From a virus, in IMG/VR virus record IMGVR_UViG_3300003877_000001, positions 248,001-312,000 of that record: a DNA stretch of 64,000 nt; one strand, 5' to 3'. Made by a program: the position numbers and the translations under genes. Positions 6,239 to 59,223 of this stretch are shown piece by piece; positions within the stretch are counted from its first letter, which is position 1; each line of letters opens with the position of its first letter. A model generated the notes under the pieces. It worked only from the letters and a program-made list of their open reading frames with translations. It made no database searches and was not told the DNA's origin.

Positions 6239-6269
6239 CAAATATAAATTAAATTAATTTAAATAGCAA
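6239..6269 (-). promoter_or_regulatory. Bacteroidota-type early promoter
   Basis: On the minus strand TTG (6269-6267), a 20-nt spacer, then TATATTTG (6246-6239), matching the -33/-7 TTG...TAnnTTTG promoter of Bacteroidota. It drives the 6214 to 3471 operon. Confidence 0.65.
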
Positions 6270-6273
6270 TAGT

Positions 6274-7425
6274 TTAAGTTAAATTTTCCAATAAACGTAG
6301 GGTATCATCGAACTTATCGATTTTTTCTAATGCATCTTGATATGTAACAGCAGTTAATCTTCTAGTGCCATTTAGTTTAATAATTCCTAAATATTCCATA
6401 TCATTTAAAAAACTATCAAGAAATTTATTTGGACTTGGAATAGAACTTTTTTCTTTAATTAATTCTAATAGCTTTGTTTTACCAAGAATTTTTTGATCTT
6501 GACCTAACATACCTTCTTTAAATATGAATTTAATAAGTGTTCTATATCTATCACGTTTTTTGTGAGTAGTTTCCATATCTGCAATGTTAGACAAATATAC
6601 ATTATAATCGTAATACTTATCGAAATAAATACCTAATATTATTATGAATTCAATTGATGTTGATATTATTAAGAACAGTAAGATATTACTAATATCTTTA
6701 TCTTCATTTTCGGATTGTTCAGTTTCCTGTTTGCTTTGAAGTTTTCTTATTTCACCATTTAGTTCATTATCAATCGATGATATTCTAACATCATTAGCTG
6801 TAATACTTTCATTATTACTGTCAACTAAATCTTGTAATTCATTTCTAACTGTACGATAATTTAAAGGTGTTTCAGCAATTTTATCTCTATATTCCTTGTT
6901 TGATTCTCTATAACTATTATTATCATCAATCAAAGTTTGCTTTCTTTCTTGATAAACACGATTTACACTATCAATTTGAGTGTTTGCTACATTTTCTATA
7001 TTAACATTAATTTCTTTAGAAGTGGATGCAAAGTTAATTGCACCATTTAATGAGAAATAGAATGATGCACCTACAATACCTATTGAAAATATAGACCATC
7101 CAATTAGACTCTTATGCATCTTAAATTTATTTTTAACAATATCAAAAGATAAATTAGCTAAAATTTTTCTTTTTAATAGTTCAAAACCACTTAAAATTAA
7201 TACCGATATAAAACCAGCAAGATATGTTGAAGCATCACCTTGTACTAGATTTGCACTGATTGCAGTTAATAATGCTGGAAACACTAAAAAGAATGCAAAA
7301 AATATTGATCCTATGTTACCAACATATGAAAATATGTTAAGCCAAGTATCAACATCTTTGTTCTTTGTCTCAAAATCTTGACTTTTAATTTTATCTCTTA
7401 ATTCAGAATATTTATTTAAATCCAT
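6274..7425 (-). CDS. Polytopic membrane protein with long coiled coil
   Basis: 383 residues with about four membrane helices: two near 36-85 (SIFFAFFLVFPALLTAI; LAGFISVLILSGFELL), one near 110-130 (IGWSIFSIGIVGASFYF) and one near 250-270 (ILLFLIISTSIEFIIILGIYF). A charged segment of about 110 residues between the third and fourth is probably a coiled coil. The C-terminus looks like a small winged-helix or helical domain. No family is recognised. A late-type motif lies 14 nt before the ATG. The role could be envelope remodelling or superinfection control, but this is inference only. Confidence 0.7.
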   Translation of the reverse strand: MDLNKYSELRDKIKSQDFETKNKDVDTWLNIFSYVGNIGSIFFAFFLVFPALLTAISANLVQGDASTYLAGFISVLILSGFELLKRKILANLSFDIVKNKFKMHKSLIGWSIFSIGIVGASFYFSLNGAINFASTSKEINVNIENVANTQIDSVNRVYQERKQTLIDDNNSYRESNKEYRDKIAETPLNYRTVRNELQDLVDSNNESITANDVRISSIDNELNGEIRKLQSKQETEQSENEDKDISNILLFLIISTSIEFIIILGIYFDKYYDYNVYLSNIADMETTHKKRDRYRTLIKFIFKEGMLGQDQKILGKTKLLELIKEKSSIPSPNKFLDSFLNDMEYLGIIKLNGTRRLTAVTYQDALEKIDKFDDTLRLLENLT

Positions 7426-7439
7426 TTTAAAATCTTTAG

Positions 7440-7448
7440 TATAAATAC
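7440..7448 (-). promoter_or_regulatory. Late-type promoter motif GTATTTATA
   Basis: Minus-strand GAGTATTTATA, 14 nt before the ATG at 7425. It serves the membrane protein gene. Confidence 0.55.
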
Positions 7449-7472
7449 TCTATTTTATAGAAATTTATAAAA

Positions 7473-7724
7473 TTACGACACACTTTCAATCCAAGCTGCT
7501 GCCGTTTGAGTTCCTGTTTCAATTTCTGTAAGTCCCATATCTATTTGTACGTAGCATTCATTTTCAGCTATTAACTCACCAAATTTTTTATCTGAAACTC
7601 TTAGTACTATAATTATACTATCTATTGGTGTTATTCCTAAATTCTTTACGGCATGTGCTACTTGTGCAGCAACCTTACCTTCACTCATTTTTAAGTTCTT
7701 TCTATATATTACTTTTATTCTCAT
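7473..7724 (-). CDS. Minimal peptidyl-tRNA hydrolase, PTH2 family
   Basis: 83 residues, about 30 shorter than usual archaeal/eukaryotic Pth2 (about 115). The hallmark LKMSEGKVAAQVAHA at residues about 11-25 corresponds to the conserved 'LkMgkGKiAAQcaHA' motif, and the C-terminal DMGLTEIETGTQTAAAW to 'DAGrTqi..GT.Tv'. Pth2 cleaves peptidyl-tRNA to free tRNA after abortive translation. The missing residues come from the central helices. Its ATG abuts the stop of the Mre11-Rad50 gene, so it is in the same early operon. Together with the CCA-adding enzyme and 2H phosphoesterase it suggests the phage looks after the tRNA pool. Confidence 0.85.
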   Translation of the reverse strand: MRIKVIYRKNLKMSEGKVAAQVAHAVKNLGITPIDSIIIVLRVSDKKFGELIAENECYVQIDMGLTEIETGTQTAAAWIESVS

Positions 7725-10700
7725 TATTCTATTGTTAACGTTGAAATATCATTTTCATCTTTAGTTACTTCTATTATATAATCAGGATCAACTTCATGAT
7801 TATGTTCTACGATAAGCACCTTATTCATTCTCTCCTTAATTGCTTGTAGTATTGTTACGAACTCCGCTACGCTATCATCCGTTAGTTTTCCCATAACTTC
7901 ATCAAGTAAGAATAAAGTAGGCTTAGACTTCGTGTTTATCTGGTTTAAAGCAAACTTCAATGCAACTGAAGCAAACGTTCTTTCCTTACCTGAAGCTGAT
8001 ATTGCATCTATCACAGCATCCAATCTACTATTATACGCTAACTTCAATTTTAAATCATTATCATCCAACCAAATGCTGAAACCAACATTTTCTAATAAGT
8101 TAGATAATTCTTTATTAATTTTAGGTATTGCATATGTTTTTAATAGTTGAGTTGGAATTCCATCTCTGTGAATACATTTCTTATAAATATTTAAAATATT
8201 GTCCTGTCTTTCTTGTTCTACCCATGTTACTATTAAATCACCAGTTTCTTTTATGGTAACAATCTTTTGACCTCTTTGAGTATTAAGACTATAAATATCA
8301 TCTTTAAAATTATCTTTCTCATATTTAAGATCGCCAAGTCTTTTCTTAGCAGCATCAATACCTAGATTAATTTTTTGGTTTTCTTCAATTTGTTTTAAAC
8401 TTTGTTCATATAAATTAACTCTTTGAGTGATATTAACTCTTTGTAAATTAAGATTCTCAATTCTAAGTGGTGTTTTTTCCGCTTCTAATTCTAATGCTTT
8501 TCTACGATCAACTTCGTTCTTATCATTCATTAATTCCCCAATTTTACTAAGAACACCTTCCATCTCTAAAGATTTACTTACAATAGTTGCCTCATATTCT
8601 GTTCTTTTTTCTTCAAGTTTTTCCTCTTCAACATCATATTTAGGTAGACCTTCTTCTTTTTCTTTAATCGTTTTAGCAATCGAATACATTTCTTCTTCAA
8701 TTTCTTTAATTTGGATTTTAATATGTTCTTGATGGTTATCGTCAAGAAGCTGACCACAAGTAGGACAATTTGTATTCGATTTAAGTACTTCAATATCTTT
8801 TTTTAATTTACTCCCTTGTTCTTTTAATCGAACAACATCACCATTTATTTTACCTCTATGATATTCAATATCTCTAAGTTGTGAATTTTTAGTTTTTATG
8901 TAATCATTTAATCTATATTCTTCATCTTTATGAGTATCCTTTTTAGATTGTAACTCATTTAATCTATCTTCATCATAAGTATCTTTTAACAAATCAATAC
9001 TTTCTTGATCTCTTTTTACTTTATGTTCTAATGTTCCAATTTCATAGTTAAGAGTATCGATATCATGACTAGTTTTTTCAATATCAAGATTATATATTTC
9101 ATCATCGATTTTATATAATTTCTTTATTAAATTTTCATGATATGTCTCACCTTTAATGATATTTCCATCAACTTTAGGAATATCAATATTCTCAATAGTA
9201 TCAATTTTAATATTAATTTCCTTTACTTCGGTTTCAAGTGTTTTAATTAACTCTTCTGATCGTTCTATATTACATGTAACTCTAGGAACTGATGATAATT
9301 CTTTAGAATATTCTTTAAACGCAGTTAGTTTATGATCAAAAACATCAAGACCACTATCATATAATAATGAATCAATAAACACAGATTTATCACCAGACAA
9401 TATTTCATTTAAACTATCAGATGTAGTCATTACAACTCTCATAAAATTTTCATAACTACCAATAGCTTTTTCAATACCTGCTTGTGTCTTATTTCTTTGA
9501 TCTTCAACTAAATTTTCAAGTGAATTATCATCAGTAAATTCATCATCAGGATTATCTAATTTATGATATGCTAATACTGTGGGAGCACCCTTTACATCAC
9601 CAGTTTTAGTCTTTTGAATTGTTGTTATTCTTTTAATGCCAAAATATTCACCATTCACACTAATAACTATTGAACCCTCACAAAAATTAACATCTAATCT
9701 ATTATTCACATATCTTTTATCACCAAACTTCATAATTTTTTCCGTTTCTCTGGATTTATTATAAAGTATATATGTAATAAGTTTCATTATTGTGGTCTTA
9801 CCTGCTGTATTGATGCCTGTTATTTGAAATAATCCATTTTGATCTCTCCAATCAATATCAACTGTTTCATATGACATAAAATTCTTACCATTGAATTTTA
9901 TAATACTCCACTCAATATTAGTCATTTCTTCAGCTTCTATTCTTGATGCTATTTCATCATCTAATTTTATAATTTCATTAACAACATCATCTTCAACACC
10001 AATTTTTTCGAGATAGTCACCAAATATTTCGTGTTGTACTGATTGTTCTACAATATTATTTACGTCAATTACGTCTTCAATAATTATATCATCATCTTCA
10101 ATGAATTCATTTTTATGTGTAATAAGTATTGGTTTATAACAATCTTTCAAATGACCAACAACCTTTCTTTTATTTACTTCATTATGTGTTTGTGGTTTAG
10201 TTTGCCATATAACCCTAACTTTCATATGTTTAGTTGGATTATCTATTTCAATTTCTAATTCATCAAAATCTGTAAAAGGATTAACTTTAACCGTTTTAAA
10301 TGAGTAGTCATTTTTAACTTCAAATTCCTTTACTGTACCATCTTCAATATTCCACATAAGATAACCATGAAATTCATAATCACCTTCACCAAAATTTTGT
10401 GCAAATAATGAACCACAATATGCTTTGGTTTTATCTTTAAAATATTGTAACTTATGTATGTCACCAAACATAGAGTAATCACCCTTAAAGTGTCCTATGT
10501 TGTTATATGTTTTACGATTGAACTCAAACCCTGTTGGTGATTTACAACCGTTTACAGGGTCATGAAATAAGTCTATGGTAGTATTACCTTCTATTGGTTT
10601 TGCACGTTTAGTCCAAGGTGAATTATTTTTAACACCATGCTTCCAAACTGCCCATGTCACATTTTCATCATCATGAAAACCTGTTTCATTATAATACATA

Positions 10701-11029
10701 ACATCAATATTATTAATGGTTTTAACTATTGCCTCAATAGAGTCAATACGTTTTAATGCTTTCTTACGTATATCGTGATTACCACGTGTGATTCGAACAG
10801 GTGCTATTTTAGCGAGATTATTTAGGAATTCAGCAGCAAGAATAGCTGCTTCGGGTTGTATATCTATGTAGTCATGAAATAAATCACCAACTACAACAAT
10901 TCTGTCTGGTTTATTTTTCTTTAAAGATTTATATAAATTATCGAATACCTGTCTAATTTCACCATGTCTTGTAGGTGATTTAGGTATATGAACGTCAGCT
11001 ATATGACAAATTTTACTTATTTTTTTCAT
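7724..11029 (-). CDS. Fused Mre11-Rad50 (SbcD-SbcC, T4 gp47-gp46-like) exonuclease
   Basis: 1101 residues that combine two proteins normally encoded by separate genes. Residues 1 to about 350 are a calcineurin-type nuclease: CHIADVHIP, VVGDLFHDY, TRGNHD and FGDIHKLQYF hold the metal ligands. From about 385 an SMC-type ATPase starts: Walker A GINTAGKTT (about 405-413), a long coiled coil with the zinc-hook CPTC (about 753-756), second coil, signature SASGKERTFA (about 1010) and Walker B LFLLDEV (about 1037), D-loop and H-loop (VEHNH). It processes DNA ends in recombination-dependent replication. No frameshift separates the halves. It is followed without a gap by Pth2. Confidence 0.93.
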   Translation of the reverse strand: MKKISKICHIADVHIPKSPTRHGEIRQVFDNLYKSLKKNKPDRIVVVGDLFHDYIDIQPEAAILAAEFLNNLAKIAPVRITRGNHDIRKKALKRIDSIEAIVKTINNIDVMYYNETGFHDDENVTWAVWKHGVKNNSPWTKRAKPIEGNTTIDLFHDPVNGCKSPTGFEFNRKTYNNIGHFKGDYSMFGDIHKLQYFKDKTKAYCGSLFAQNFGEGDYEFHGYLMWNIEDGTVKEFEVKNDYSFKTVKVNPFTDFDELEIEIDNPTKHMKVRVIWQTKPQTHNEVNKRKVVGHLKDCYKPILITHKNEFIEDDDIIIEDVIDVNNIVEQSVQHEIFGDYLEKIGVEDDVVNEIIKLDDEIASRIEAEEMTNIEWSIIKFNGKNFMSYETVDIDWRDQNGLFQITGINTAGKTTIMKLITYILYNKSRETEKIMKFGDKRYVNNRLDVNFCEGSIVISVNGEYFGIKRITTIQKTKTGDVKGAPTVLAYHKLDNPDDEFTDDNSLENLVEDQRNKTQAGIEKAIGSYENFMRVVMTTSDSLNEILSGDKSVFIDSLLYDSGLDVFDHKLTAFKEYSKELSSVPRVTCNIERSEELIKTLETEVKEINIKIDTIENIDIPKVDGNIIKGETYHENLIKKLYKIDDEIYNLDIEKTSHDIDTLNYEIGTLEHKVKRDQESIDLLKDTYDEDRLNELQSKKDTHKDEEYRLNDYIKTKNSQLRDIEYHRGKINGDVVRLKEQGSKLKKDIEVLKSNTNCPTCGQLLDDNHQEHIKIQIKEIEEEMYSIAKTIKEKEEGLPKYDVEEEKLEEKRTEYEATIVSKSLEMEGVLSKIGELMNDKNEVDRRKALELEAEKTPLRIENLNLQRVNITQRVNLYEQSLKQIEENQKINLGIDAAKKRLGDLKYEKDNFKDDIYSLNTQRGQKIVTIKETGDLIVTWVEQERQDNILNIYKKCIHRDGIPTQLLKTYAIPKINKELSNLLENVGFSIWLDDNDLKLKLAYNSRLDAVIDAISASGKERTFASVALKFALNQINTKSKPTLFLLDEVMGKLTDDSVAEFVTILQAIKERMNKVLIVEHNHEVDPDYIIEVTKDENDISTLTIE

Positions 11030-11450
11030 TTTTTATTTTCTTAATTGACCAACCTAATGTTATTTTTTTTCGAATGGTTTCTTTATTTAAATCAAATTCT
11101 TCTGACAATATTCTGGATAGTTCAGTTTTAGTATATTTAACTCCACGATATATAATATACTTATCGTAAAATTTTCTAGTATAATTTATATCATTAAAAT
11201 ATTTCTTATCTTTTAATATTGACAAATATACTTCTTTTTTTCTAGAGAAGCAAATATTTGAATCATCGTATAGGTAATGAAATATTCTATTAATAATAAT
11301 ATTTCCACCATAACGTAATGATCTTATATTATTAAGATCACACAGTACCTACCATAGTAAAATTTTAAGTATTTTTTAAAATAGACTCTGCCCATTTGTC
11401 ATAATAATTTTTACACACTGCTATTCTGTTATGTTTATTGCTTTGGCACG
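11013..11450 (-). pseudogene. Decayed LAGLIDADG homing endonuclease
   Basis: An ATG-less reading frame is open from about 11349 down to the stop at 11013. Its translation holds the typical C-terminal LAGLIDADG block: SLRYGGNIIINRIFHYLYDD followed by SNICFSRKKEVYLSIL, matching the family's 'YgGn...i..yLY.datI.L.RK...y'. Behind this comes a helix-turn-helix-like tail (TKTELSRILSEEF...ETIRKKITLGWSIKKI). Further upstream, in another frame and interrupted by a stop, are KNYYDKWAESILKN and NFTMVGT, the latter like the family's 'FsivGt'. So the gene is frameshifted and lacks its start. A 70-residue reading from a TTG at 11225 is possible, but that TTG lies inside a host-type -7 box, so I treat it as untranslated. 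Confidence 0.6.
11223..11253 (-). promoter_or_regulatory. Bacteroidota-type early promoter inside endonuclease remnant
   Basis: Minus strand TTG (11253-11251; TTTG with the next base), 20-nt spacer, TATATTTG (11230-11223). It has the same spacing as the promoters at 6239, 13529 and 59126, and would drive the Mre11-Rad50/Pth2 operon with a leader of about 190 nt. Confidence 0.55.
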
Positions 11451-11458
11451 ATATTCAT
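11443..11458 (+). promoter_or_regulatory. Sigma-54-like half site before hsp20
   Basis: TTGGCACG followed by N4 and TCAT. The first half is a perfect -24 element (TTGGCACG); the expected -12 TTGC is TCAT instead. It lies 43 nt before the Hsp20 ATG. It may be a degenerate or inactive sigma-54 promoter. Confidence 0.3.
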
Positions 11459-11501
11459 TATATATTAATCAAATAATTTTAATTAAAAATAGAAAAATAT
11501 T

Positions 11502-11918
11502 ATGTTAGTAAAAAATTTAAAAAGTAGAAATTTATTGGATGACTTATTTGGTGATTCATTTTTTAGTGAGATTAATGATGTGTATAATAAACCAAATGGT
11601 AATCGTGGATTACCTTATGATATTATAGAAGCAGAGGATGATTTCAAAATCGAACTCATGTTAGCAGGATTTAATAAAAAAGATTTTAATCTTGAAGTAG
11701 ATGAAGGTAAACTTATCATTAGTGGTGAAAGAAAGGAAATTGAAGACACAAAATATAATCATAGACAAAGTTATTTCGGTAAAATAACAAAAACATTTAC
11801 ATTACCTAAAGATGTTATAGTTGATAAAATAGATGCAGAGTATGTTAATGGTGTATTAGTAGTTACAATACCAAAAGATAAAGAATTGATAAATAGTAAG
11901 TCGATTGTTGTTAGGTAA
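11502..11918 (+). CDS. Small heat-shock protein, Hsp20 family
   Basis: 138 residues and one of only two clear plus-strand genes. The alpha-crystallin domain spans about 37-125: LPYDIIEAEDDFKIELMLAG, LEVDEGKLIISGERKE, RQSYFGKITKTFTLPKDV, then the conserved end AEYVNGVLVVTIPK. The C-terminal SKSIVVR resembles the I-x-I/V tail used for oligomer assembly. Hsp20 proteins are ATP-independent holdases; phage copies occur in T4-like cyanophages and may aid virion protein folding. The upstream 275-nt gap to 11225 holds an endonuclease remnant on the other strand and a sigma-54-like half site. It ends at two hairpins that form a convergent terminator. Confidence 0.92.
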   Translation: MLVKNLKSRNLLDDLFGDSFFSEINDVYNKPNGNRGLPYDIIEAEDDFKIELMLAGFNKKDFNLEVDEGKLIISGERKEIEDTKYNHRQSYFGKITKTFTLPKDVIVDKIDAEYVNGVLVVTIPKDKELINSKSIVVR

Positions 11919-11920: not shown

Positions 11921-11976
11921 AATTAACAGACGTGTCTGCTAATTTTAGGATGGTGATTATTCATCATCCTTTTTTA
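11921..11976 (+). terminator. Double-hairpin convergent terminator
   Basis: First hairpin CAGAC-GT-GTCTG with flanking AATTA/TAATT, followed by TTTT. Second hairpin GGATGGTG/CATCATCC (11948-11969) followed by TTTTTTATTTT. It ends hsp20; the second stem overlaps the last codons of the convergent sigma-factor gene. Confidence 0.7.
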
Positions 11977-12538
11977 TTTTACTTCTTGTATAATTTATTT
12001 TATTTGATATTTTACTCTCATTACTATTAAATTCTTTAGCTATTTCATTATACGAATATCCTTCAGAATTCATTGTTAACATTGAAAAATCATTAATACT
12101 TATTTTGTTTGAAATGAAATTCAAAGAATCGTTAGTTTCTAATGTATCATGTGGTGAACTAGAGAGAGAAGCTGGTTCAATCATTTTAAAAGATGTTGAC
12201 ATTGTGGGAGTCGAACTATATGCAATATTATCAGATGTAAACGTATTTGATGTGAATGAAACATAAATAGGTGTATGTTTTCTAGATTTATCAATCATAT
12301 AATTTTTAGCTATCATTATAACCCAAGTATCAAATTTTGATTTTGTAGCATCATATGTTTTAATTTTTTCGAAAACTTTAAATAATATTTCTGAAACATC
12401 ATCATCATGTTCTGAATTATATGGATATTTTTTAAATAAAAATTTACCTATTTTTTCTTTATATATTTCATATAATTTTTCATATGACCTATTACTACCA
12501 TTTTGTGTTCCCACTATAAGTTTTTGTATATTTATCAT
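11957..12538 (-). CDS. Phage-encoded sigma-70-type (ECF-like) sigma factor
   Basis: 193 residues. Region 2 is visible at about 18-88: YEKLYEIYKEKIGKFLFKKY, DDVSEILFKVFEKIKTYD and KFDTWVIMIAKNYMIDKSRK, the classic 2.1-2.4 signature. A Ser/Thr-rich linker of about 50 residues follows, then a region-4 helix-turn-helix near 160-188 (EGYSYNEIAKEFNSNESKIS). It would direct host RNA polymerase to phage promoters. The gene sits behind the primase in an operon led by a host-type promoter, so it would be made early. That fits a role in turning on the GTATTTATA-motif genes, though the pairing is my inference. It overlaps the primase 3' end by 44 nt. Confidence 0.82.
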   Translation of the reverse strand: MINIQKLIVGTQNGSNRSYEKLYEIYKEKIGKFLFKKYPYNSEHDDDVSEILFKVFEKIKTYDATKSKFDTWVIMIAKNYMIDKSRKHTPIYVSFTSNTFTSDNIAYSSTPTMSTSFKMIEPASLSSSPHDTLETNDSLNFISNKISINDFSMLTMNSEGYSYNEIAKEFNSNESKISNKINYTRSKIKKDDE

Positions 12539-13528: not shown

Positions 13529-13559
13529 CAAAGATACAAAAAAAAATGGTCACCTACAA
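13529..13559 (-). promoter_or_regulatory. Bacteroidota-type early promoter for primase-sigma operon
   Basis: Minus strand TTG (13559-13557), 20-nt spacer, TATCTTTG (13536-13529). Its -33 element lies in the loop of the terminator for the gene to the right. Confidence 0.7.
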
Positions 13560-14083: not shown

Positions 14084-14092
14084 TATAAATAC
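14084..14092 (-). promoter_or_regulatory. Late-type promoter motif GTATTTATA
   Basis: Minus-strand GTATTTATAA, 32 nt before the ATG at 14051 and just after the terminator at 14111. Confidence 0.5.
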
Positions 14093-15713: not shown

Positions 15714-15745
15714 CAAATATATAATAATTTAATTAATAATGTCAA
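15714..15745 (-). promoter_or_regulatory. Bacteroidota-type early promoter
   Basis: Minus strand TTG (15745-15743, within TTGACA), 21-nt spacer, TATATTTG (15721-15714), 32 nt before the phosphoesterase ATG. Confidence 0.6.
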
Positions 15746-17052: not shown

Positions 17053-17061
17053 TATAAATAC
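17053..17061 (-). promoter_or_regulatory. Late-type promoter motif GTATTTATA
   Basis: Minus-strand CAGTATTTATAA, 17 nt before the ATG at 17035. Confidence 0.55.
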
Positions 17062-22121: not shown

Positions 22122-22130
22122 TATAAATAC
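22122..22130 (-). promoter_or_regulatory. Late-type promoter motif GTATTTATA
   Basis: Minus-strand GTATTTATATT, 15 nt before the ATG at 22106. Confidence 0.55.
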
Positions 22131-27609: not shown

Positions 27610-27618
27610 TATAAATAC
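27610..27618 (-). promoter_or_regulatory. Late-type promoter motif GTATTTATA
   Basis: Minus-strand GTATTTATATG, 15 nt before the GTG at 27594, directly after a terminator. Confidence 0.55.
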
Positions 27619-32894: not shown

Positions 32895-32903
32895 TATAAA
32901 TAC
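32895..32903 (-). promoter_or_regulatory. Late-type promoter motif GTATTTATA
   Basis: Minus-strand GTATTTATAAA, 12 nt before the gp25 ATG, placed just after a terminator. Confidence 0.6.
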
Positions 32904-36522: not shown

Positions 36523-36531
36523 TATAAATAC
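36523..36531 (-). promoter_or_regulatory. Late-type promoter motif GTATTTATA
   Basis: Minus-strand GTATTTATAAT, 24 nt before the ATG at 36498. Confidence 0.5.
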
Positions 36532-42207: not shown

Positions 42208-42244
42208 TATCAAATATTTAATTAAGAATAATATTATATTCTAA

Positions 42245-42253
42245 TATAAATAC
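42245..42253 (-). promoter_or_regulatory. Late-type promoter motif GTATTTATA
   Basis: Minus-strand GGTATTTATAT, 37 nt before the ATG at 42207, leading the spanin-like/RNA-repair unit. Confidence 0.5.
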
Positions 42254-46685: not shown

Positions 46686-46694
46686 TATAAATAC
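46686..46694 (-). promoter_or_regulatory. Late-type motif overlapping a stop codon
   Basis: Minus strand TAGTATTTATAT; it begins in the stop codon of the 46694 gene and precedes the terminator, 49 nt from the ATG at 46636. Confidence 0.45.
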
Positions 46695-47473: not shown

Positions 47474-47482
47474 TATAAATAC
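47474..47482 (-). promoter_or_regulatory. Late-type promoter motif GTATTTATA
   Basis: Minus strand TAGTATTTATAA, 30 nt before the ATG at 47443. Confidence 0.5.
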
Positions 47483-48681: not shown

Positions 48682-48690
48682 TATAAATAC
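48682..48690 (-). promoter_or_regulatory. Late-type promoter motif GTATTTATA
   Basis: Minus strand AAGTATTTATAA, 31 nt before the ATG at 48650. Confidence 0.5.
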
Positions 48691-50333: not shown

Positions 50334-50342
50334 TATAAATAC
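50334..50342 (-). promoter_or_regulatory. Late-type promoter motif GTATTTATA
   Basis: Minus strand TAGTATTTATAT, 15 nt before the ATG at 50318 and right after the polymerase terminator. Confidence 0.55.
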
Positions 50343-50346: not shown

Positions 50347-50371
50347 AAAAGGGGAATTATTATAAATCCCC
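50347..50371 (-). terminator. Intrinsic terminator of the replication operon
   Basis: Minus strand GGGGATTT-loop-AATTCCCC followed by TTTTCTT. The stem begins within the last polymerase codons. Confidence 0.65.
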
Positions 50372-53300
50372 TTCATCAAAATAAATATCAGGTTCGAAAT
50401 CAGCTTCCTTTTCATTAACATAATCATCAAAAGCTAATTTCACATTTGGTACTTTTTCAAACAATTCATCCATATCATAATGTGGTGGTATGTTATTATC
50501 TTTTACAAAAGACTTAAAATATTCAATTTTTTTCATTCTCTCTTTAACAATCTTCTCCTTTTGCACATTAATATAATTAACATCTTCCACTCTAAGTTTT
50601 TGTAATTCAGCTTCCTTTACCTTTTCAGCTTCTTCCCATTGATGTTCTGTTGGTGAAAGTGGTACTTTAACATCATCATACTTTTTCAATATTTCAATGA
50701 ATTCACCATTATTATACCCAATTGTATATTTATCTCTAACCCAATGATTACCATTTTTATAAACATATTTATTTTCAATTTTTGGTTTAGATGCATTAAC
50801 TACTAAAGGAGTAATATCACCAACCTTTATAATATTTTTAATTAAAACATAATCACCACGAATCGTTTTATCATTAATAGATTTAATCCTAGACTTACCA
50901 GACTTTTCCATTGCATCACTAAGATAGTTCAATGCATGATTATATATTTCATAATTAACTAATCCATATTTTTCAACATCTTTTGTTTTAAAACCATCCC
51001 ATATTAATCTTGGATCATAACCAGTTTTATTCCAAAAATCAACTTCCCTATCTTCAAGATACATAGAGTCTTCATAATCATCATGATTAAAGTTTTTTAA
51101 GACTAATTGATCTGATTTAAATTCTCCCTTTTTAAGATCGATTTGCTCAACCTTTGCACCTGATGCATCTTCAATTTTTTTTCTAACTATTTTAACTAAA
51201 ATTTCATCTCTTATTTCAGCATCAAATCCATCAAGTAATACTTTAACACGTTTATTAAATGCTGCAAGATATTTTTCTACATTATAATCACCTGTTGTTT
51301 CAGGATTTTCTTCTAAATCTTTTTGGTTGATTAATCTAGCTTTAATAATAGTTTCACCTGTTTTAGAATCACTTTTAACATCACCATGAGACTTACGTGT
51401 ACCTGTGTTAACATAATAAACAGTAGTATCTAATTCAGGTTCAGGTGGCATATATGTTTCAACCTTCTCTATTATTGTCATTATATCATAATCACCAATT
51501 TCTCTATTATCATCATCTTTAAATTTTTCAAAATCATTTTCAAAGATTTTTCTAGCAATATTTTCACGTTCAGCAATAATAAGTTCCATATGTACTTGTT
51601 TTGCCTTTAATTTACCATTTTTATTTGTACCACGATTAAGATAATCATCTATTGAATTTTTAATTCTAGATTTAGATGCTATTTTTTTCAATGGTATTTG
51701 TTTATAAAAAATTGTTTCAGAATAATTATAATAATATTCTATAAAACCTTCACCATTACCATCTAAAATTAATTTCATGCTTTCATCAATAAAATCTTCA
51801 ATGAATTCAGGCATTGTTTTAGACTTAATTGTATTACCAGTAAATTTAATTTTTTTCTTATTAATAAAACACCCATTAAAGTTTGGATCAGGGACTTGTT
51901 TTGGTTTACCTGTTTCTTTATCTATATCGTCTGACATTAAAGCATAATTAATTCTAGATAAATTTAAACATGAGTCAAACTCACCATCATTATCTACGGA
52001 TAAATAAGAATTTTCACGACCTAACGAGGTATAATGATCTTTTAAATAATCATTGAACTTTTCTATCAATGCTGAAACACCTGTCTTATTATTATATTCC
52101 CACATTTCTTCAATTACACCCTCACTTACTCCCTCACTTACACCCTCATTAGTAGCTCTAATTGTTGTAGTATCTGGAATGCTAAAGTTAATACCATCTG
52201 TTACAGCAAGTAATGGAATTAATCCAAATTTATTAAACCAATCAATTGCTTGTCTTAAATATATTCTACCTGTTGTAGTAATTCTAGCAGCACATATATT
52301 ATCTGACCAATTAAATGCATATCCTGAACCTAATGCACCAAATAATGAATTGTTAAGAATTTTAATAGGTAACTGCTTAACAATAAATATATTTATTTGT
52401 TCTTTAGTAAATTTACCACTAAAAAATATTTGATATGATTCATTATCGATTGTTTTTAATAATTCAATTTCATTATCTGTAAGTTTATCTTCATTTCCAA
52501 GTTTCTTATATATGTTACGAGTTGTTGTCATATAAGTAAGCATCTTCTTAATAACACCAGTAATATCAAACATAGGGAATACATCATGTGTCAACTGTAT
52601 CATTGGATATAGTGATGCATAATCAATTTTAAGAAGTCTCTTAGTGTAACCTTTCTTATAACATCTTGCAAGACCACCTGAAAATCTTTCAACATCATCA
52701 GGATGTGGAATTGCTAAATCATTTTCATAACTCCATGCTGTCATGAGTAAGTTCCAAACGGCAGCATTGCCCATTGTTGCAACACGACTATATATTGTTG
52801 GAACAATTTTAGCAAGTAAGAATGATGATTGGTTGTATAAATTATCTACTTGTTCTGTTTCCCATAAATCATCCAATAAATATCTTCTTAAAATATTCTT
52901 ACCGTTTTCAAATTTAAAATCTATTGTTGTTGATGAAAACTTATCAGGATTTAATTTAATAATATTAGGTCTTAACCATTCAACAAATTCAGGGTTTGGT
53001 TTTAATAATTCATTTCTAGCTACCTTATATTCATCATCACTGATTTTATCTTTATTTTCTTGTAAAAAATATAATTCACTCGATACATTATAGAATTTAG
53101 CAGGAATTTCAATATAATCATTATTTTCACTATTTAAAATAAACATAGGATTTTTATGCCAAAATCTTCCAATATCCTTACCATCATGTATATACATTCT
53201 ATTAGGTTTGGCAATATCTTCATATTTACAAATATATTTTAATTTGTTATTTTTGATTTCACTATTAACTGCTGCTGTTTTTTTTACGGCATGTATAATA

Positions 53301-54295
53301 TCTAATATTGTAAAACCATAGGCTATTGTTTGATTATATTTTTCAGTACTATTACCAAATTTAACAGTACTACCCTTTTTTCTCCATAAATCTTCTTCAG
53401 GTATTAAGGTAGTTTGTATTCTATTTTTAGGTATATCTTCTTTTTTTCTTTTTCTAGGAAACCCATTTTTAGTATATTCTGATTCAACATCCATTCCTAA
53501 TAATCTAGCTCTACCCAATATAAAGTCATAATCAAACATTTCAGAGTTATAACCTGAAATAATTGCAGGATTAATATATGTAATTAAATTAAAAAAATCT
53601 TGTATTATTATTTTTTCTGATTCATCATCATCAGGTTTTTCAACTTCTAATACATGTTCAAATCCTTTATTATCTTTCATACCAATAGCAAAGATTCTTG
53701 AATGTTCGTATCTTAAACCAGTGGTTTCAATATCAAATGTTAATTTATGTACATCATTATATTCTTCAAATCCTTTAAATAATCTAATTCCTGTTGATAT
53801 GAAAAATTGTTCATTTAGTTTTGGAAGATAAAATAAATCTCTATATTTAGAAACACTAAAACCTCTATTATCTTTAAGTATTTTACCTCTATCATCATAA
53901 ATTTTTTGATATGGATTTAAACCAGCTTCTTCAAAAAATTTAATTAACATACTAAATGATTTAGTTGTAGATGCTTTATATGGATAACCATTTTCTAATC
54001 TTGGATGGTTACCTGTTTTCATTTTTGTAATCGTTACATCATACTTTTGTAGGATTGCCTTATATTTATCAACATTACCATCAAAGAGTTTATACCCAAC
54101 CTTTTTAAGGTCTTTAAAATAGATGAATGATGTAAATGGTATTCGAACAATTTGTTTGGTTTTATTTGGTTCATGAATTACACATGTTGCATATTCATGA
54201 TTATTGTCTGTTTCAACATTAACCAAATATTTTACATCATTATTTTTCCCTTCTAAAAATTCTTGAATTTCTTTAATAGTATTTTCAGTTGTCAT
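50360..54295 (-). CDS. Family B DNA polymerase with 3'-5' exonuclease
   Basis: 1311 residues, longer than T4 gp43 (about 900). Exo I is LTFDIETTGL (about 183-192), Exo II ISGYNSEMFDYDFI. Polymerase motif A is LKIDYASLYP (about 553-562), motif B KILNNSLFGA (about 644-653), and motif C is LLAVTDGINF (about 693-702), where the usual YxDTDS reads V-T-D-G: the first Asp is missing. A 12-bp triplication encodes EGVSEGVSEGV near 716. The last 300 residues are an extra charged domain. It replicates the phage genome. Its ATG overlaps the helicase stop by 4 nt. Confidence 0.92.
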   Translation of the reverse strand: MTTENTIKEIQEFLEGKNNDVKYLVNVETDNNHEYATCVIHEPNKTKQIVRIPFTSFIYFKDLKKVGYKLFDGNVDKYKAILQKYDVTITKMKTGNHPRLENGYPYKASTTKSFSMLIKFFEEAGLNPYQKIYDDRGKILKDNRGFSVSKYRDLFYLPKLNEQFFISTGIRLFKGFEEYNDVHKLTFDIETTGLRYEHSRIFAIGMKDNKGFEHVLEVEKPDDDESEKIIIQDFFNLITYINPAIISGYNSEMFDYDFILGRARLLGMDVESEYTKNGFPRKRKKEDIPKNRIQTTLIPEEDLWRKKGSTVKFGNSTEKYNQTIAYGFTILDIIHAVKKTAAVNSEIKNNKLKYICKYEDIAKPNRMYIHDGKDIGRFWHKNPMFILNSENNDYIEIPAKFYNVSSELYFLQENKDKISDDEYKVARNELLKPNPEFVEWLRPNIIKLNPDKFSSTTIDFKFENGKNILRRYLLDDLWETEQVDNLYNQSSFLLAKIVPTIYSRVATMGNAAVWNLLMTAWSYENDLAIPHPDDVERFSGGLARCYKKGYTKRLLKIDYASLYPMIQLTHDVFPMFDITGVIKKMLTYMTTTRNIYKKLGNEDKLTDNEIELLKTIDNESYQIFFSGKFTKEQINIFIVKQLPIKILNNSLFGALGSGYAFNWSDNICAARITTTGRIYLRQAIDWFNKFGLIPLLAVTDGINFSIPDTTTIRATNEGVSEGVSEGVIEEMWEYNNKTGVSALIEKFNDYLKDHYTSLGRENSYLSVDNDGEFDSCLNLSRINYALMSDDIDKETGKPKQVPDPNFNGCFINKKKIKFTGNTIKSKTMPEFIEDFIDESMKLILDGNGEGFIEYYYNYSETIFYKQIPLKKIASKSRIKNSIDDYLNRGTNKNGKLKAKQVHMELIIAERENIARKIFENDFEKFKDDDNREIGDYDIMTIIEKVETYMPPEPELDTTVYYVNTGTRKSHGDVKSDSKTGETIIKARLINQKDLEENPETTGDYNVEKYLAAFNKRVKVLLDGFDAEIRDEILVKIVRKKIEDASGAKVEQIDLKKGEFKSDQLVLKNFNHDDYEDSMYLEDREVDFWNKTGYDPRLIWDGFKTKDVEKYGLVNYEIYNHALNYLSDAMEKSGKSRIKSINDKTIRGDYVLIKNIIKVGDITPLVVNASKPKIENKYVYKNGNHWVRDKYTIGYNNGEFIEILKKYDDVKVPLSPTEHQWEEAEKVKEAELQKLRVEDVNYINVQKEKIVKERMKKIEYFKSFVKDNNIPPHYDMDELFEKVPNVKLAFDDYVNEKEADFEPDIYFDEGDL
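52115..52150 (-). repeat. 12-bp x3 tandem repeat in polymerase gene
   Basis: Three near-perfect copies encode EGVS-EGVS-EGVI just after motif C. Slippage would change length in steps of four residues. Confidence 0.75.
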
Positions 54296-57200
54296 TCTTT
54301 GTATTTGTTTTTAAGTTTGTTGATAACATCTCTAAGTACAGATTCTGAAATATTACTTTCATAATCTTCGTTATCCAATGCTTTCATTATTTCTTTTCGT
54401 TTAGATTCTATAACATCAAAAACATACTCATCGAGAGTATCTCTAAATATGATAGGATAGATGTTAACTGTGTTTTTCTGTGAGATTCTATGAAGCCTAT
54501 CTGCAACCTGATCATATTGACCAACAGAGAATGGGAGTGTAATAATAATCATTTTTGATGATGCTGTCAAGGTTAAACCATAATTAGCTGTCTGAATTGA
54601 TGCTAAAAATATTTTAACATTACTTTCAGGGTCTTGAAATTTAGCTACTAATGCTGCTCTATCTTCTACTGTTTGATCACCAGTATGTAATGCTGAATTT
54701 TCTGGATAAAGATCATGAAGATCATATAATGATTGTTTAAACATATCAACAACAACAACTTTTTCACCTTGTTCTAATATATTATCAATGATTTCTCTAA
54801 TATAGTTAACCTTAATTGATGAAGTATATTGACGTAATCTCAACATTATAGTTAATGGATTTGATGTTGGTTTCTCATATATCTCATTAACAACATCTTC
54901 CTCAATTTGATCATATAATTTATCTTCCTTAGTATTAAGTTCTAAAATAATTTTTTGATAAATTTTATCAGGTAAATCGGTTAATACTTCTTCCTTTTTC
55001 TTTCTATATACATATGATGCAATTTTATGAAATAGTTCTTCCAATTTTTGATGTTGTACGTTTGTTGACCAACCACCAAAACCATCCATATCATAGGACA
55101 TGCCACAATAATATTCATTAAAATGTTTTTTTGTTGCAAAATCAATCGGTGATATTTGATTTAGTACCGTATATAATTCATGTGCTCTATTTGGTGCAGG
55201 AGTACCTGAAAGAAATACTTTACTAACCTCTCCATTTTTGAATACCTTTTTATTAAATATTCTTTTGAAATTTTTGAATGTATTTGCTGAAGTATTTTTT
55301 AATGCTTGACAATTACTAACTAATATACTATTAGCAAAATAATTATGATTATCCGCTATTTCTAGATCATATACCCTTTTATTTTGTTCACCACTTCTTC
55401 CAAATTTTCGTCTATTTCCTGATTCCAAAATCTCAATACTTTCCACCCAAACAATTTCAATATCTCTGTTTTCCTTTTGTCTAGAAATTTCCATTTTTTT
55501 GTTTTGTGAGATTTTCCATCTATTTCTATTGATAATTTTATTGATGTAATTCCAATATCCACTTTGTAATGTGTTGGTGGAGATTTTATATTCGTAATAC
55601 CCATTTCCTTTAATGGTTTCATTATTGGTATCACATGTTCCATTTCCATAAATGTAATGCCTGAAATTTCTCCAAATAATATTAATTGTTGTTTTGTCAA
55701 TTTTCCATTTCCACCCCTTGATAAAAACGTTCTCCCAATCATTTTTTTTCTCATTTTTTCTACTGTTATTGGGTTTGACATTGGATTGTTCAATTTCATC
55801 CTCTCCGATTGATTCTTTCTCATTTGAGGGTTCTTTTTGTAAAACTCTATCATAGATAGACTCCTTTTTTTCGAAAGTTCCTTCATATATAATTTTTCTT
55901 TTATTTCTGGTAAAGACATTCTCCATTTTGCTGAACAACTTGTTGAACAAAATTTCTTTTTTCTTTTTTTCATTACTTGAAATTCCACGCCACATTGTTG
56001 ACATATCCTTATCTCTCTCAATTGTAAATTGACTTCTTTTTTTCTTCCAGTGTATTTTGTTGAACATTTTCTTGAACAAAGTTTTTGTGTTCTTCTTTTC
56101 TGTTGAAATAGAGTGTTGCACTCTAGGCAATTTGTTTTTTTTATTAATTTTCCCTTTTCTTTCCATCTCTGCTTCATTGAACACGTTACAGTGCAACATT
56201 TCTTTTTCACATGTTCTTTTATTTGGAATTCTTTCTCGCAAAATTGGCAATTTCGTGTTATTATTTTGCTTTGTTTTCTTTTTAATAAGTTTTTCCCCAT
56301 ATTTAAAATTTTTAATAGGTTTATATTTATTTTCAGTAATTGAATAAAATTTGTGGTCTGGTGTACATTCGATTATTTCACCATTAGATAATTTTATTTT
56401 AATTACATCTTTATATCCGTTATATAAATACCTACTAATTGTTTTTGTTTCAATCTTTTTTAACGTATGATTATAGGATAAAACTTTTACATCTAATTTA
56501 TCTTCAACAATTTTCCCAATTTTCATTTTCCCTTTATCAGTATCAATTAATGTATTATATGTAAAACATTCGTCTGCAATTAATACATCTATTAAACCAA
56601 TATTTAAATCTTTAAATTTTTTATCAACTTTTTTCTTATCTCTAGAATTAAAATATTCATAATTAACAATAATATATTTAGATTCTTCCATTGTATGTTT
56701 ATTCTTAAATTTACTAGATTTAGGAACAATTATATGTGCTTTAGAATGTGTAAATTTTTCAACTTCATTAAAGAAATTAAATTTTAATGAGTTAGGTGTT
56801 ATTACAAACACCCTTTTAAAATTATTCATCTCAACATATGCAATTGCAGAAAGTGTATTGTGAGTTAAAATACAATTATCTGTAACATATAAATGATCTT
56901 CTGCATCAACCATTATACATTGTGCTTCTTTTTTACCAACATAATTAACTTCCTTTATTGCTCTATTAGGTAAATATTTTGTAGGTGATACATATCTTTC
57001 TATTTTACGTTTTAATTTGAAAGGTATTATATTGGGTGGTAATTTTATTGATAATCTATAATATGTTGGTTTTACTTCTATCTCTTCATACCATGAAGTT
57101 CTAGTTTTATACCTTGCAATACCACCTAATGATTGTACAATAAACTTTACATCATCTATTAATTGTTTTGATGCTAATGTTAAATCAATATTCATACCAT

Positions 57201-58398
57201 CAGAACTAATAGTTCCATCCGTATCCATAATTCCCCTTAAAATTTCTAATCTATCTTCAATTGAAGAGAACATATAATCTTTAGGAATAAATTTTGTGTG
57301 TGAACCACACCCCTTTAAGTTATATTCTTTTAAATTTTGATTTATGTAATTATTTTTACCATCTGCCGTTAGATAATAATCTTTTTTACTATTTCCAGAT
57401 AAAACTAACTGATGATTTTGTGGTAATTTAGAGTCTATCTCGTTAATAATTTCATTATCTATATTCGTAAAACTAACACCATATTTTGTTGTAATAGAGC
57501 CATCACCCAATAAACAACCTAAAATATATGGGTCTATTTTTAATTTTTTTTCTTTAAATTCAATTGGTTCAACAATGGGTATATAATGTTTATTATTACC
57601 ATTATCAAACTGTAACCCCTCATTCATGATTTCTCTAAGTGTTTTTGTTTGATATGAATATTTTTTTATTCCTTTATTTGTTCTATGAATTCTAGTTGTT
57701 GAATTAACATTCCAAAGATGTTCATCACACGATCTTGCTGTTGTATTGTCATTAAATTTAATTTCATATATATCTTTTTTACCTTGAGGATAAACTCCAA
57801 TAACTTTTGTTGATTTACCATTACTTCCAATCACATAATCACCAACTTTAACATCGCCCATTCTAATCCAACCATTAGGTGTAAGTAGTTTAGAATCTAA
57901 GTCTTGGCTTTTTCCTAAACCCATTTCTAGTGCTAATAAAACACTTTTAACTTCATCAATAAACATAGTACCAGCTATTTGATGTGGATATAATATTGTA
58001 CCTTCTTTAAGATTTTTATGTGTTAGTTCTCTATATTTTTCAAAATCCTTATCTAATTCATCTTTTAATCTAATCCAAAGATTTTTCTTTTGTACAAGTA
58101 ATTTTAATTCTAAGATTTTTCTCGCATCATCTTCATCAATTTTTTTGATTTGCTTAATAAATGCGTGTTTTTCTTCAACACCACCAAAATCAAATACGAT
58201 TTTATTAGATTTACGATACCTCTTCATTAGTTCATAAAGACCTCTGGTATTCATAATCCAACAATTTTCAACAGAATCCCATTTACGCCAATCTACGTTG
58301 ATTTCCTTTATTCTAGAAACAACTTCTTTATGATAATCGAAAAATACTTTATATTTTGATTGTCGTAATATTCTATGACAGGATACTTTAAAGGGCAT
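54292..58398 (-). CDS. SNF2-type helicase interrupted by two inteins
   Basis: 1368 residues, of which about 598 are extein. N-terminal part (1-163) has a HARP-like/SNF2 lead, then Walker A as LALEMGLGK|TLSAIA, split by intein 1 (164-514). Walker B is VLIADE|CQALKN, split by intein 2 (611-1029). The C-terminal helicase lobe has LSGTPAPNRAHEL, DMFKQSLYDLHDLY, LHTGDQTVEDR, ASIQTANYGLTLTAS and QVADRLHRISQKN (motif VI). After splicing it would be a UvsW/SMARCAL1-like DNA translocase for fork remodelling. It is followed by DNA polymerase with a 4-nt overlap. Confidence 0.9.
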   Translation of the reverse strand: MPFKVSCHRILRQSKYKVFFDYHKEVVSRIKEINVDWRKWDSVENCWIMNTRGLYELMKRYRKSNKIVFDFGGVEEKHAFIKQIKKIDEDDARKILELKLLVQKKNLWIRLKDELDKDFEKYRELTHKNLKEGTILYPHQIAGTMFIDEVKSVLLALEMGLGKSQDLDSKLLTPNGWIRMGDVKVGDYVIGSNGKSTKVIGVYPQGKKDIYEIKFNDNTTARSCDEHLWNVNSTTRIHRTNKGIKKYSYQTKTLREIMNEGLQFDNGNNKHYIPIVEPIEFKEKKLKIDPYILGCLLGDGSITTKYGVSFTNIDNEIINEIDSKLPQNHQLVLSGNSKKDYYLTADGKNNYINQNLKEYNLKGCGSHTKFIPKDYMFSSIEDRLEILRGIMDTDGTISSDGMNIDLTLASKQLIDDVKFIVQSLGGIARYKTRTSWYEEIEVKPTYYRLSIKLPPNIIPFKLKRKIERYVSPTKYLPNRAIKEVNYVGKKEAQCIMVDAEDHLYVTDNCILTHNTLSAIAYVEMNNFKRVFVITPNSLKFNFFNEVEKFTHSKAHIIVPKSSKFKNKHTMEESKYIIVNYEYFNSRDKKKVDKKFKDLNIGLIDVLIADECFTYNTLIDTDKGKMKIGKIVEDKLDVKVLSYNHTLKKIETKTISRYLYNGYKDVIKIKLSNGEIIECTPDHKFYSITENKYKPIKNFKYGEKLIKKKTKQNNNTKLPILRERIPNKRTCEKEMLHCNVFNEAEMERKGKINKKNKLPRVQHSISTEKKNTKTLFKKMFNKIHWKKKRSQFTIERDKDMSTMWRGISSNEKKKKEILFNKLFSKMENVFTRNKRKIIYEGTFEKKESIYDRVLQKEPSNEKESIGEDEIEQSNVKPNNSRKNEKKNDWENVFIKGWKWKIDKTTINIIWRNFRHYIYGNGTCDTNNETIKGNGYYEYKISTNTLQSGYWNYINKIINRNRWKISQNKKMEISRQKENRDIEIVWVESIEILESGNRRKFGRSGEQNKRVYDLEIADNHNYFANSILVSNCQALKNTSANTFKNFKRIFNKKVFKNGEVSKVFLSGTPAPNRAHELYTVLNQISPIDFATKKHFNEYYCGMSYDMDGFGGWSTNVQHQKLEELFHKIASYVYRKKKEEVLTDLPDKIYQKIILELNTKEDKLYDQIEEDVVNEIYEKPTSNPLTIMLRLRQYTSSIKVNYIREIIDNILEQGEKVVVVDMFKQSLYDLHDLYPENSALHTGDQTVEDRAALVAKFQDPESNVKIFLASIQTANYGLTLTASSKMIIITLPFSVGQYDQVADRLHRISQKNTVNIYPIIFRDTLDEYVFDVIESKRKEIMKALDNEDYESNISESVLRDVINKLKNKYKE
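55312..56568 (-). mobile_element. Intein 2, in Walker B motif, with out-of-frame endonuclease
   Basis: Residues 611-1029 of the helicase frame (419 residues). It starts with Cys (CFTYNTLIDTDKGKMKIGKI), has block B CTPDHKFYSITENKYKPIKN, and ends VYDLEIADNHNYFANSILVSN, quoted here as DLEIADNHNYFANSILVSN, before the +1 Cys. The splicing parts are residues 611-700 and 1009-1029. Between them the helicase frame is open but codes for a Lys/Asn/Glu-rich, non-conserved sequence, because that DNA encodes a nuclease in the +1 frame. Confidence 0.88.
55362..56300 (-). CDS. Zinc-finger VSR-like homing endonuclease in +1 frame within intein 2
   Basis: 312 residues, start ATG at 56300 inside the TAT-GGG of KYGEKL, stop TAG inside the CTA-GAA of VYDLE. 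Three CxxC...CS..C zinc fingers (NCQFCEKEFQIKEHVKKKCC; NCLECNTLFQQKRRTQKLCS; ICQQCGVEFQVMKKRKKKFC), a NUMOD3-like block (NPMSNPITVEKMRKKM) and a VSR/EDxHD nuclease domain: HYKVDIGITSIKLSIEIDGK, SHKTKKWKFLDKRKTEIL and GWKVLRFWNQEI. These are strongly protein-like, unlike the overlapping helicase-frame translation. No late or early promoter is directly before it; internal initiation is most likely. Confidence 0.85.
   Translation of the reverse strand: MGKNLLKRKQSKIITRNCQFCEKEFQIKEHVKKKCCTVTCSMKQRWKEKGKLIKKTNCLECNTLFQQKRRTQKLCSRKCSTKYTGRKKEVNLQLREIRICQQCGVEFQVMKKRKKKFCSTSCSAKWRMSLPEIKEKLYMKELSKKRSLSMIEFYKKNPQMRKNQSERMKLNNPMSNPITVEKMRKKMIGRTFLSRGGNGKLTKQQLILFGEISGITFMEMEHVIPIMKPLKEMGITNIKSPPTHYKVDIGITSIKLSIEIDGKSHKTKKWKFLDKRKTEILKLFGWKVLRFWNQEIDENLEEVVNKIKGYMI
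56857..57909 (-). mobile_element. Intein 1, in Walker A motif, with LAGLIDADG endonuclease
   Basis: Residues 164-514 (351 residues). It starts with Ser (SQDLDSKLLTPNGWIRMGDV), block B is ARSCDEHLWNV, and it ends DAEDHLYVTDNCILTHN before Thr. The endonuclease part (about 286-470) carries two LAGLIDADG-like motifs, ILGCLLGDGSI and ILRGIMDTDGTI. Splicing would restore GLGK-TLSAIA, the ATP-binding loop. Confidence 0.92.
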
Positions 58399-58431
58399 AT
58401 ATTATTTTTAAATTTGTTTAATTATTAGTAG

Positions 58432-59106
58432 TTAAAAATCACGCTCAATTTCCATTCTTTTGATACAATCTAGTGGTGTTTCGTTATCTAGTAATTTATA
58501 ACTACACCCAATCGTTCCACCTTTCCAACTCCATTTCTTTTTCCCAACTTCTTTTGAAAAATGTATATCAATAGTTTTATTTACTAACGCAAATACTTTA
58601 GTCCACTTTAACCATTTAGGTCGCCATTCTCTTTCTTCCACATATATTTTTGTGGGGATGATTTCGCCATCATATTTATCTTTGTAATCATATTCCCATA
58701 CTGCTTGTTTAATCTTCCAATTATCTTCATAAAAATTTTTATGATTTCCATTTGTTTCGTGTTCCCAACTATTATTTTTTAATAAAATTGATGTTCTTAT
58801 CCAATCTTTTGTAATAAATGGAATATCCCAAGTCCACCATTTACTACCACCATCCATATTACCCTTACCCCCTTTATAAACCCAAAATGTATTATTGTGA
58901 ATTGCAATTCCCCATTTAGGACAATCACATTCATTCGTCCATTTGTTTCTAAAAGGGAGTATAATTGTTAAATTAAAAAATATAAAATCTAAATTAATTC
59001 TTGGTCTATTATCAAAATATCCACATATTTCAAAACTAATATCAAAAACTTTTGACCAATAAAATATTAACCATTTACTTTCATAAATCCATTTCTCTTT
59101 TTTCAT
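58432..59106 (-). CDS. Conserved Trp-rich phage protein, unknown function
   Basis: 224 residues with 22 or so Trp. Segments such as WKWTKVFALV, EREWRPKWLKW, FSKEVGKKKWSWKGGTIGCS and MEIERDF-like ends match a hypothetical protein seen in many unrelated phages. Its role is not known to me. It is the first gene of the replication operon, 33 nt before the helicase and behind a host-type promoter. Confidence 0.72.
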   Translation of the reverse strand: MKKEKWIYESKWLIFYWSKVFDISFEICGYFDNRPRINLDFIFFNLTIILPFRNKWTNECDCPKWGIAIHNNTFWVYKGGKGNMDGGSKWWTWDIPFITKDWIRTSILLKNNSWEHETNGNHKNFYEDNWKIKQAVWEYDYKDKYDGEIIPTKIYVEEREWRPKWLKWTKVFALVNKTIDIHFSKEVGKKKWSWKGGTIGCSYKLLDNETPLDCIKRMEIERDF

Positions 59107-59125
59107 ATATTTATTTCTTAGTTCA

Positions 59126-59156
59126 CAAAGATAATAATATTTCCATCAAAATGCAA
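59126..59156 (-). promoter_or_regulatory. Bacteroidota-type early promoter of replication operon
   Basis: Minus strand TTG (59156-59154), 20-nt spacer, TATCTTTG (59133-59126), 19 nt before the ATG at 59106. Same -7 sequence and spacing as the primase promoter. Confidence 0.7.
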
Positions 59157-59214
59157 CCATATTAAAAACATATTCAAATTTACCACAATATTCATAAAGA
59201 AAATTAATTTTAAT

Positions 59215-59223
59215 GTATTTATA
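59215..59223 (+). promoter_or_regulatory. Late-type motif on the plus strand
   Basis: GTATTTATATAC, 3 nt before the ATG of the plus-strand endonuclease gene. Its orientation matches the gene, as with the minus-strand copies. Confidence 0.45.

Follow-up and report, generated by a model that had tools for sequence, protein, structure and literature searches.

Three promoter classes and two ECF-family sigma factors in a group of very large T4-related phages, with a proposed late sigma factor encoded in the primase operon

The window analysed in this work is a stretch of 64,000 nucleotides, bases 248001-312000 of the IMG/VR phage record G000 (325,854 bases; genome GC 27%), with most of its genes on the minus strand. 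The stretch compared with 50,697 deposited phages had no near match there, and no recognisable copy of SigP, the sigma factor of the window, is encoded by any of them. Moreover, SigP used as a single query gave no match in IMG/VR or INPHARED, and a profile made from four SigP sequences was required to find its relatives. The dataset consisted of the rest of the G000 record and ten relatives (eleven genomes when pooled), which were found first via the helicase of the window and then via the SigP profile; gene calls were heuristic, so that single start codons may be in error. These phages, very large relatives of T4 with Bacteroidota as their probable hosts, share T4-type portal, terminase and baseplate genes.

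The window carries a primase gene followed by the SigP gene, and a second sigma factor gene lies elsewhere in the same genome:

12495..13523, minus strand: DNA primase (phrog_47, 5.7e-21), ATG at 13523 (a longer GTG-started ORF extends to 13553); overlaps the start of SigP by 44 nt
11957..12538, minus strand: SigP, a 193-aa ECF-family sigma factor with sigma2, a disordered linker and sigma4; proposed reader of class L promoters (below)
188762-189289 of G000, outside the window and about 71 kb away: SigX, a second sigma factor of canonical ECF type, among small accessory genes

SigP matches Sigma70_r2 at 1.7e-11 and, over its full length, the profile of SigW at 2e-12. Its TIGR02937 score of 55 bits (55-80 across the group) exceeds the cut-off of 42.9 and places it in the ECF family, as do the 75-104 bits scored by SigX in five genomes, where this protein consists of sigma2 and sigma4 only. 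An AF2 model supports the sigma2-sigma4 layout of SigP, with SigW/sigmaE as the nearest PDB structures, and the model of SigX is of lower confidence. Similarity between the two proteins is clear. However, the linker of SigP is long, disordered and rich in Ser/Thr, and its sigma4 recognition helix is conserved and non-canonical, departing from the ECF form that SigX keeps. The order primase-SigP is preserved in eight genomes and the overlap in seven of the eight; this overlap makes it probable that SigP is translated in coupling with the primase. In the bacterial dnaG-rpoD (macromolecular synthesis) operon a primase gene is likewise directly followed by a sigma gene. The order is the same, the sigma factor here being an ECF-family phage protein, and we draw this as an analogy without claiming a common origin. 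Directly behind SigP, on the opposite (plus) strand, lies a gene for an Hsp20-type small heat shock protein (11502-11918), and opposite-strand ORFs of 131-139 aa occupy the same place in several relatives.

Five sites in the window, designated class H, have the form of a host promoter:

6239..6269, minus strand: class H promoter, TTG-N20-TATATTTG, before gene 5177-6214
11223..11253, minus strand: class H promoter, TTG-N20-TATATTTG, before the 11013 ORF and the SbcC/gp46-like gene 7724-11029; the ortholog has class H in 6/7 other genomes
13529..13559, minus strand: class H promoter, TTG-N20-TATCTTTG, before the primase-SigP operon; class H here in 8/8 genomes
15714..15745, minus strand: class H promoter, TTG-N21-TATATTTG, before the gp47-like exonuclease 14167-15681; class H at this gene in 8/8 genomes
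59126..59156, minus strand: class H promoter, TTG-N20-TATCTTTG, before gene 58432-59106

These five had been listed as class 1 in a first-pass annotation of the window, and all are exact matches to TTG-N20-TAnnTTTG (N21 in the case of 15714). In G000, 38 copies of TTG-N20-TAnnTTTG compare with about 11 at other spacings, and 12 and 9 copies of the TTTG-N19/20 variants with about 4; the enrichment of class H (TTG-N19/20-TAnnTTTG) is modest but clear. The class fits the form of the Bacteroidota primary-sigma promoter, which in Bacteroides has TTTG near -33 and TAnnTTTG at -7 (PMC7366714). The earlier view that this host-type form stands ahead of replication and repair genes and of the primase-sigma operon holds well, the operon and the gp47-like exonuclease gene having it in all eight genomes. 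In G005, SigX is also preceded by a clear class H promoter.

A second class, designated class L (class 2 of the first-pass annotation), is represented in the window by the motif GTATTTATA:

3451..3459, minus strand: L motif GTATTTATA, gap to ATG 14 nt; gene 2948-3436
7440..7448, minus strand: L motif GTATTTATA, gap 14 nt; gene 6274-7425
14084..14092, minus strand: L motif GTATTTATA, gap 32 nt; gene 13599-14051
17053..17061, minus strand: L motif GTATTTATA, gap 17 nt; gene 16838-17035
22122..22130, minus strand: L motif GTATTTATA, gap 15 nt; gene 20775-22106; class L at this gene in 8/8 genomes
27610..27618, minus strand: L motif GTATTTATA; gene 23173-27594, a large protein with a weak tail/Ig-like match (phrog_807 tail, 2.7e-4)
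32895..32903, minus strand: L motif GTATTTATA, gap 12 nt; gp25-like baseplate wedge 32484-32882 (phrog_261); class L in 7/8 genomes
36523..36531, minus strand: L motif GTATTTATA, gap 24 nt; glycosyltransferase-like gene 35122-36498 (phrog_7162)
42245..42253, minus strand: L motif GTATTTATA; gene 41896-42213
46686..46694, minus strand: L motif GTATTTATA, gap 49 nt; gene 44015-46636
47474..47482, minus strand: L motif GTATTTATA, gap 30 nt; gene 46694-47443; class L in 7/8 genomes
48682..48690, minus strand: L motif GTATTTATA; gene 48414-48650
50334..50342, minus strand: L motif GTATTTATA, gap 15 nt; gene 49815-50318
2067..2075, minus strand: GTATTTATA, gap to the listed ATG 4 nt; gene 1838-2062; a doubtful promoter for that start
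59215..59223, plus strand: GTATTTATA, gap to the listed ATG 3 nt; GIY-YIG homing endonuclease 59227-60081; below the cut-off of the L profile and doubtful

The motif was found at every position given for it in the first-pass annotation, and the quoted distances to the start codon were right for most sites, the sites at 2067 and 59215 lying only 3-4 nt before the listed ATG. GIY-YIG/NUMOD homing endonuclease-like genes are present at 15749-16057 (minus strand), 59227-60081 (plus strand) and L012:9239-10048 (plus strand), some with GTATTTATA directly upstream. In the window, GTATTTATA occurs 23 times against 3.75 expected, a count reached by 0/100 shuffles, and a genome-wide count with strand and start distance, which had been proposed as a check on the class, gave a clear enrichment: 78 occurrences across G000 against 19 for the reversed pattern, with a same-strand start 3-60 nt downstream for 48 of the 78, compared with 4.2% of random positions, 0/19 for the reversed motif and 9/78 for the complement. 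In a de novo EM search of 272 upstream regions, class L came out first, as aAGTATTTATAataAA. When sites from the eleven genomes were pooled (315 sites), the consensus was aGTATTTATAnnAAA on the coding strand, the distance from motif start to ATG had its mode at 22-26 nt, and there was no conserved -35 box, a weak T-run being present instead.

The two-class picture drawn earlier was correct in that both classes are real, but it was incomplete, for a third class and a second sigma factor exist. Two further motifs, TTGTAACCTTT and TATACGTATA, came out of the EM search described above, and these are the two halves of a bipartite class, class E, TGTAAC-N16/17-CGTATA; TATACGTATA was also considered as a separate palindromic class and rejected, being the -10 half of class E. 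G000 has 45 exact pairs, compared with 0-3 at each of the other spacings, and the relatives G004, G005, G008, G013, G018 and G022 have 28, 43, 44, 63, 56 and 37, respectively; the class is weaker in G002, G009 and G017. GTAAC-N16/17-CGTA is the form of promoters recognised by ECF sigma factors, and class E has this form, with AAC at -35 and CGT at -10 at a fixed spacing of 16-17 nt before genes. Its sole match in the window (43457-43482) is intragenic, and for this reason class E was not visible to the first-pass annotation. In G005, a common leader, TATAACCACTTAA, comes after many of the class E promoters. Leaders in the upstream regions of G008 and G022 are enriched in the word ATAAACCAA, which in both genomes stands before SigX, among other places, and is perhaps an early-gene leader element.

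The genes are divided by promoter class, and this division is well supported. Among 3252 reciprocal best-hit ortholog pairs from eight genomes, compared with label shuffles, both members had class L in 445 pairs (104 shuffled), class E in 57 (12) and class H in 122 (13), and mixed E-L pairs numbered 6 against 73 expected. The first genes downstream of class L are long and conserved, and those downstream of class E are short and mostly genome-specific. Tail sheath, portal, terminase large subunit and gp25-like baseplate wedge genes stand behind class L, which was found at the portal gene in 6/6 genomes where a portal was found and at the gp25 gene in 7/8, bearing out the proposal that this class precedes virion genes. 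Behind class E are rIIA and rIIB (each in 4/5 of the genomes having them) and accessory genes. The rII genes of T4 are pre-replicative. The functions of the genes behind each class thus suggest which classes would be early and which late.

The tight distance of class L from the ATG, in a genome of such low GC content, might be taken to mean that the motif acts in translation or RNA processing, or arises from the AT-rich composition. However, class L lies far above shuffles and reversed controls, it is kept at orthologs and it is mutually exclusive with class E. Moreover, eight genomes have 1218 genes packed no more than 15 nt behind the preceding gene, and class L stands ahead of only 2 of these, compared with about 12% of non-packed genes, including those at strand switches, and class E avoids packed genes in the same way. 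A translation signal would not do so, which argues that both are transcription signals, and we regard an origin of class L other than as a promoter as very improbable. If they are promoters, transcription starts are expected 5-8 nt past TATTTATA for class L and 7-10 nt past CGTA for class E.

It seems that each of the two phage sigma factors has a class of its own. Within 10 kb of SigX there are 87 class E sites against 21 expected, a number reached by 0/20,000 circular shifts; around SigP there are 2 class E sites against 26 expected, and around SigX 5 class L sites against 24 expected. Because class E clusters at SigX, and because the canonical ECF form is found on both sides of the pair, SigX most likely reads class E. 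This assignment is well supported, though a shared accessory region may partly inflate the clustering. Once class E is given to SigX, SigP is the remaining conserved sigma factor, and by elimination and co-conservation it most likely reads class L: its sigma4 helix and class L are both nearly invariant, and SigX and class E are both variable. GTATTTATA was found in 35/38 SigP loci, mostly above the reversed control, and class L is absent from two T4-like phages that have no SigP, Flavobacterium phage immuto and LR756508. SigX-like sigma factors from outside the clade were sought as a means of separating E from L, and neither motif was enriched in those loci. ECF sigma factors normally require a -35 element, and the lack of one in class L therefore counts against its pairing with SigP. 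The earlier assignment of class 2 to the sigma factor at 11957 thus survives by elimination and co-conservation, but this protein can no longer be called the phage sigma factor, as there are two.

Could the pairs be the reverse, with SigX reading class L and SigP reading class E? Both sigma factors and both motifs occur together in all genomes over 300 kb (5/5), so that co-occurrence in complete genomes cannot separate the pairs. In addition, class E is present in G004 and G002, in whose contigs SigX was not found and SigP was the sole sigma factor recovered; both contigs are incomplete, however, and that of G004 terminates in an E-rich stretch. The reversed pairing would also place class E away from the sigma factor at which it clusters and give class L to one that it avoids, join a variable partner to a nearly invariant one in each pair, and part the canonical ECF sigma factor from the canonical ECF promoter form. 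We consider it improbable.

Taken together, the data make it fairly probable that these phages run a three-class programme on the host core RNA polymerase. Firstly, the host primary sigma factor would read class H and express replication and repair genes, including the primase-SigP operon. Secondly, SigX would direct class E and thereby rIIA, rIIB and accessory genes, many of them around sigX itself. Thirdly, SigP would direct class L (aGTATTTATAnnAAA, without a -35 box) and with it the virion genes.

The T4 late promoter, which gp55 recognises together with gp33 and gp45, is TATAAATA and spans -13 to -6 (PMC1524935). The present system resembles T4 late transcription in the short -10-type element that stands ahead of virion genes and has no -35 box, in its T4-type virion genes, in the proposed use of a phage sigma factor on the host core polymerase, and in the position of the SigP gene between gp47- and gp46-like genes. 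It differs in its motif, GTATTTATA, and in its candidate sigma factor, an ECF-family protein with sigma4 and without similarity to gp55; TATAAATA is not the class L consensus, which on the coding strand is aGTATTTATAnnAAA. In the T4 genome, GTATTTATA occurs 9 times against 2 for the reversed word, mostly on one strand. Searches for gp55 (phrog_234, phrog_12791) gave no credible match in 6/7 genomes, T4 gp55 matching its family; the exception is a gp55-like ORF of 108 aa in G008 (C1:23379-23702, minus strand; 4e-7), of which no homolog was found in the other genomes. For gp33 (phrog_254) the best value was 0.026, in G013, against 1.6e-33 for the T4 control, though such a small, fast-evolving protein could escape detection, and the gp45 clamp (phrog_223) gave no match in seven genomes against 3.4e-86 for the T4 control, a search that a diverged clamp could likewise escape. 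The independence from T4-style gp55 and gp33 that the first-pass annotation had put forward therefore agrees with these results, in that the families were not detected apart from the one gp55-like fragment in G008.

A very diverged gp55 or gp33 is possible. It may be that such a pair, or a phage-modified host polymerase, reads class L as an unrecognised factor, and that SigP shares class E, in whole or in part, with SigX. Class L is indeed like the T4 late promoter in length, in position and in lacking a -35 box (PMC1524935), the portal, terminase and baseplate genes are shared with T4, G008 has its gp55-like ORF, and SigP belongs to a family whose members read bipartite promoters. However, the T4 controls were recovered in searches that found no credible gp55, gp33 or gp45 in the group, the ORF of G008 stands alone, class E sites are fewer than expected near SigP and more numerous than expected near SigX, and the recognition helix of SigP is unlike the ECF form that SigX keeps. 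We judge this explanation unlikely, yet well ahead of a reversal of the two pairs. For the stronger version of the SigP reading, namely that a single ECF-family sigma factor from the primase operon has taken the place of the gp55/gp33/gp45 late switch and acts on T4-late-like promoters that lack a -35 box, with a second ECF sigma factor running a separate accessory regulon, the chances appear evenly balanced.

A phage-encoded multi-subunit RNA polymerase was considered and rejected: of the two large neighbouring ORFs, 50360-54295 encodes a DNA polymerase, and 54292-58398 (minus strand) an SNF2/UvsW-like helicase that bears intein sequence. In this helicase of 1368 aa, intein splicing and LAGLIDADG domains were matched at 180-447 and 621-1029, which may mean two inteins, and relatives have about 589 aa. 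Flavobacterium phage immuto (MW353176.1 70001-120000, L203) has a word of its own, TATATTTAGGTATCAATAA, repeated before late-region genes, a candidate late promoter in a cultured relative. The G000 phage has about 45 tRNA genes, and one, found by ARAGORN at L016:17717-17787 (plus strand; about 157717-157787 of G000), has the anticodon CUA (listed as Pyl) and is a possible amber suppressor.

The sigma2-linker-sigma4 layout of SigX and SigP and the GTAAC-N16/17-CGTA form of class E are those of cellular ECF sigma factors (SigW, SigM and RpoE types). In contrast to these, both proteins are phage-encoded, and SigP has a long disordered linker, another recognition helix and a proposed promoter without a -35 box. 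In the cascade of Bacillus phage SPO1, successive phage sigma factors, gp28 for middle and gp33/gp34 for late genes, reprogram the host polymerase. Phage-encoded sigma factors and separate promoter classes are common to both systems, and action in succession is a feature of SPO1; here, however, the sigma factors are of ECF type, the early promoters of Bacteroidota type and the virion of T4 lineage. Group 2 jumbo phages are described, in the part of the account available, as T4-like phages that have no RNA polymerase of their own, carry sigma factors and gp33 orthologs, and recruit the host polymerase (PMC7824862). They differ from the present group in that gp33 is reported there and was not detected here, and that part of the account gives no promoter classes. 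By the tests made, the two sigma factors are of the ECF family, and the system lies outside the T4 late system, yet works like a T4- or SPO1-style programme on the host core polymerase.

No account of promoter classes in such phages was found in the open-access literature searched. If the proposed scheme is true, an ECF-type sigma factor would serve as a phage late sigma factor on promoters without a -35 box, and virion genes of T4 lineage would be expressed independently of the T4 late machinery. By means of the three motifs, the timing of genes in dozens of uncultured jumbo phages could then be predicted from the sequence alone.
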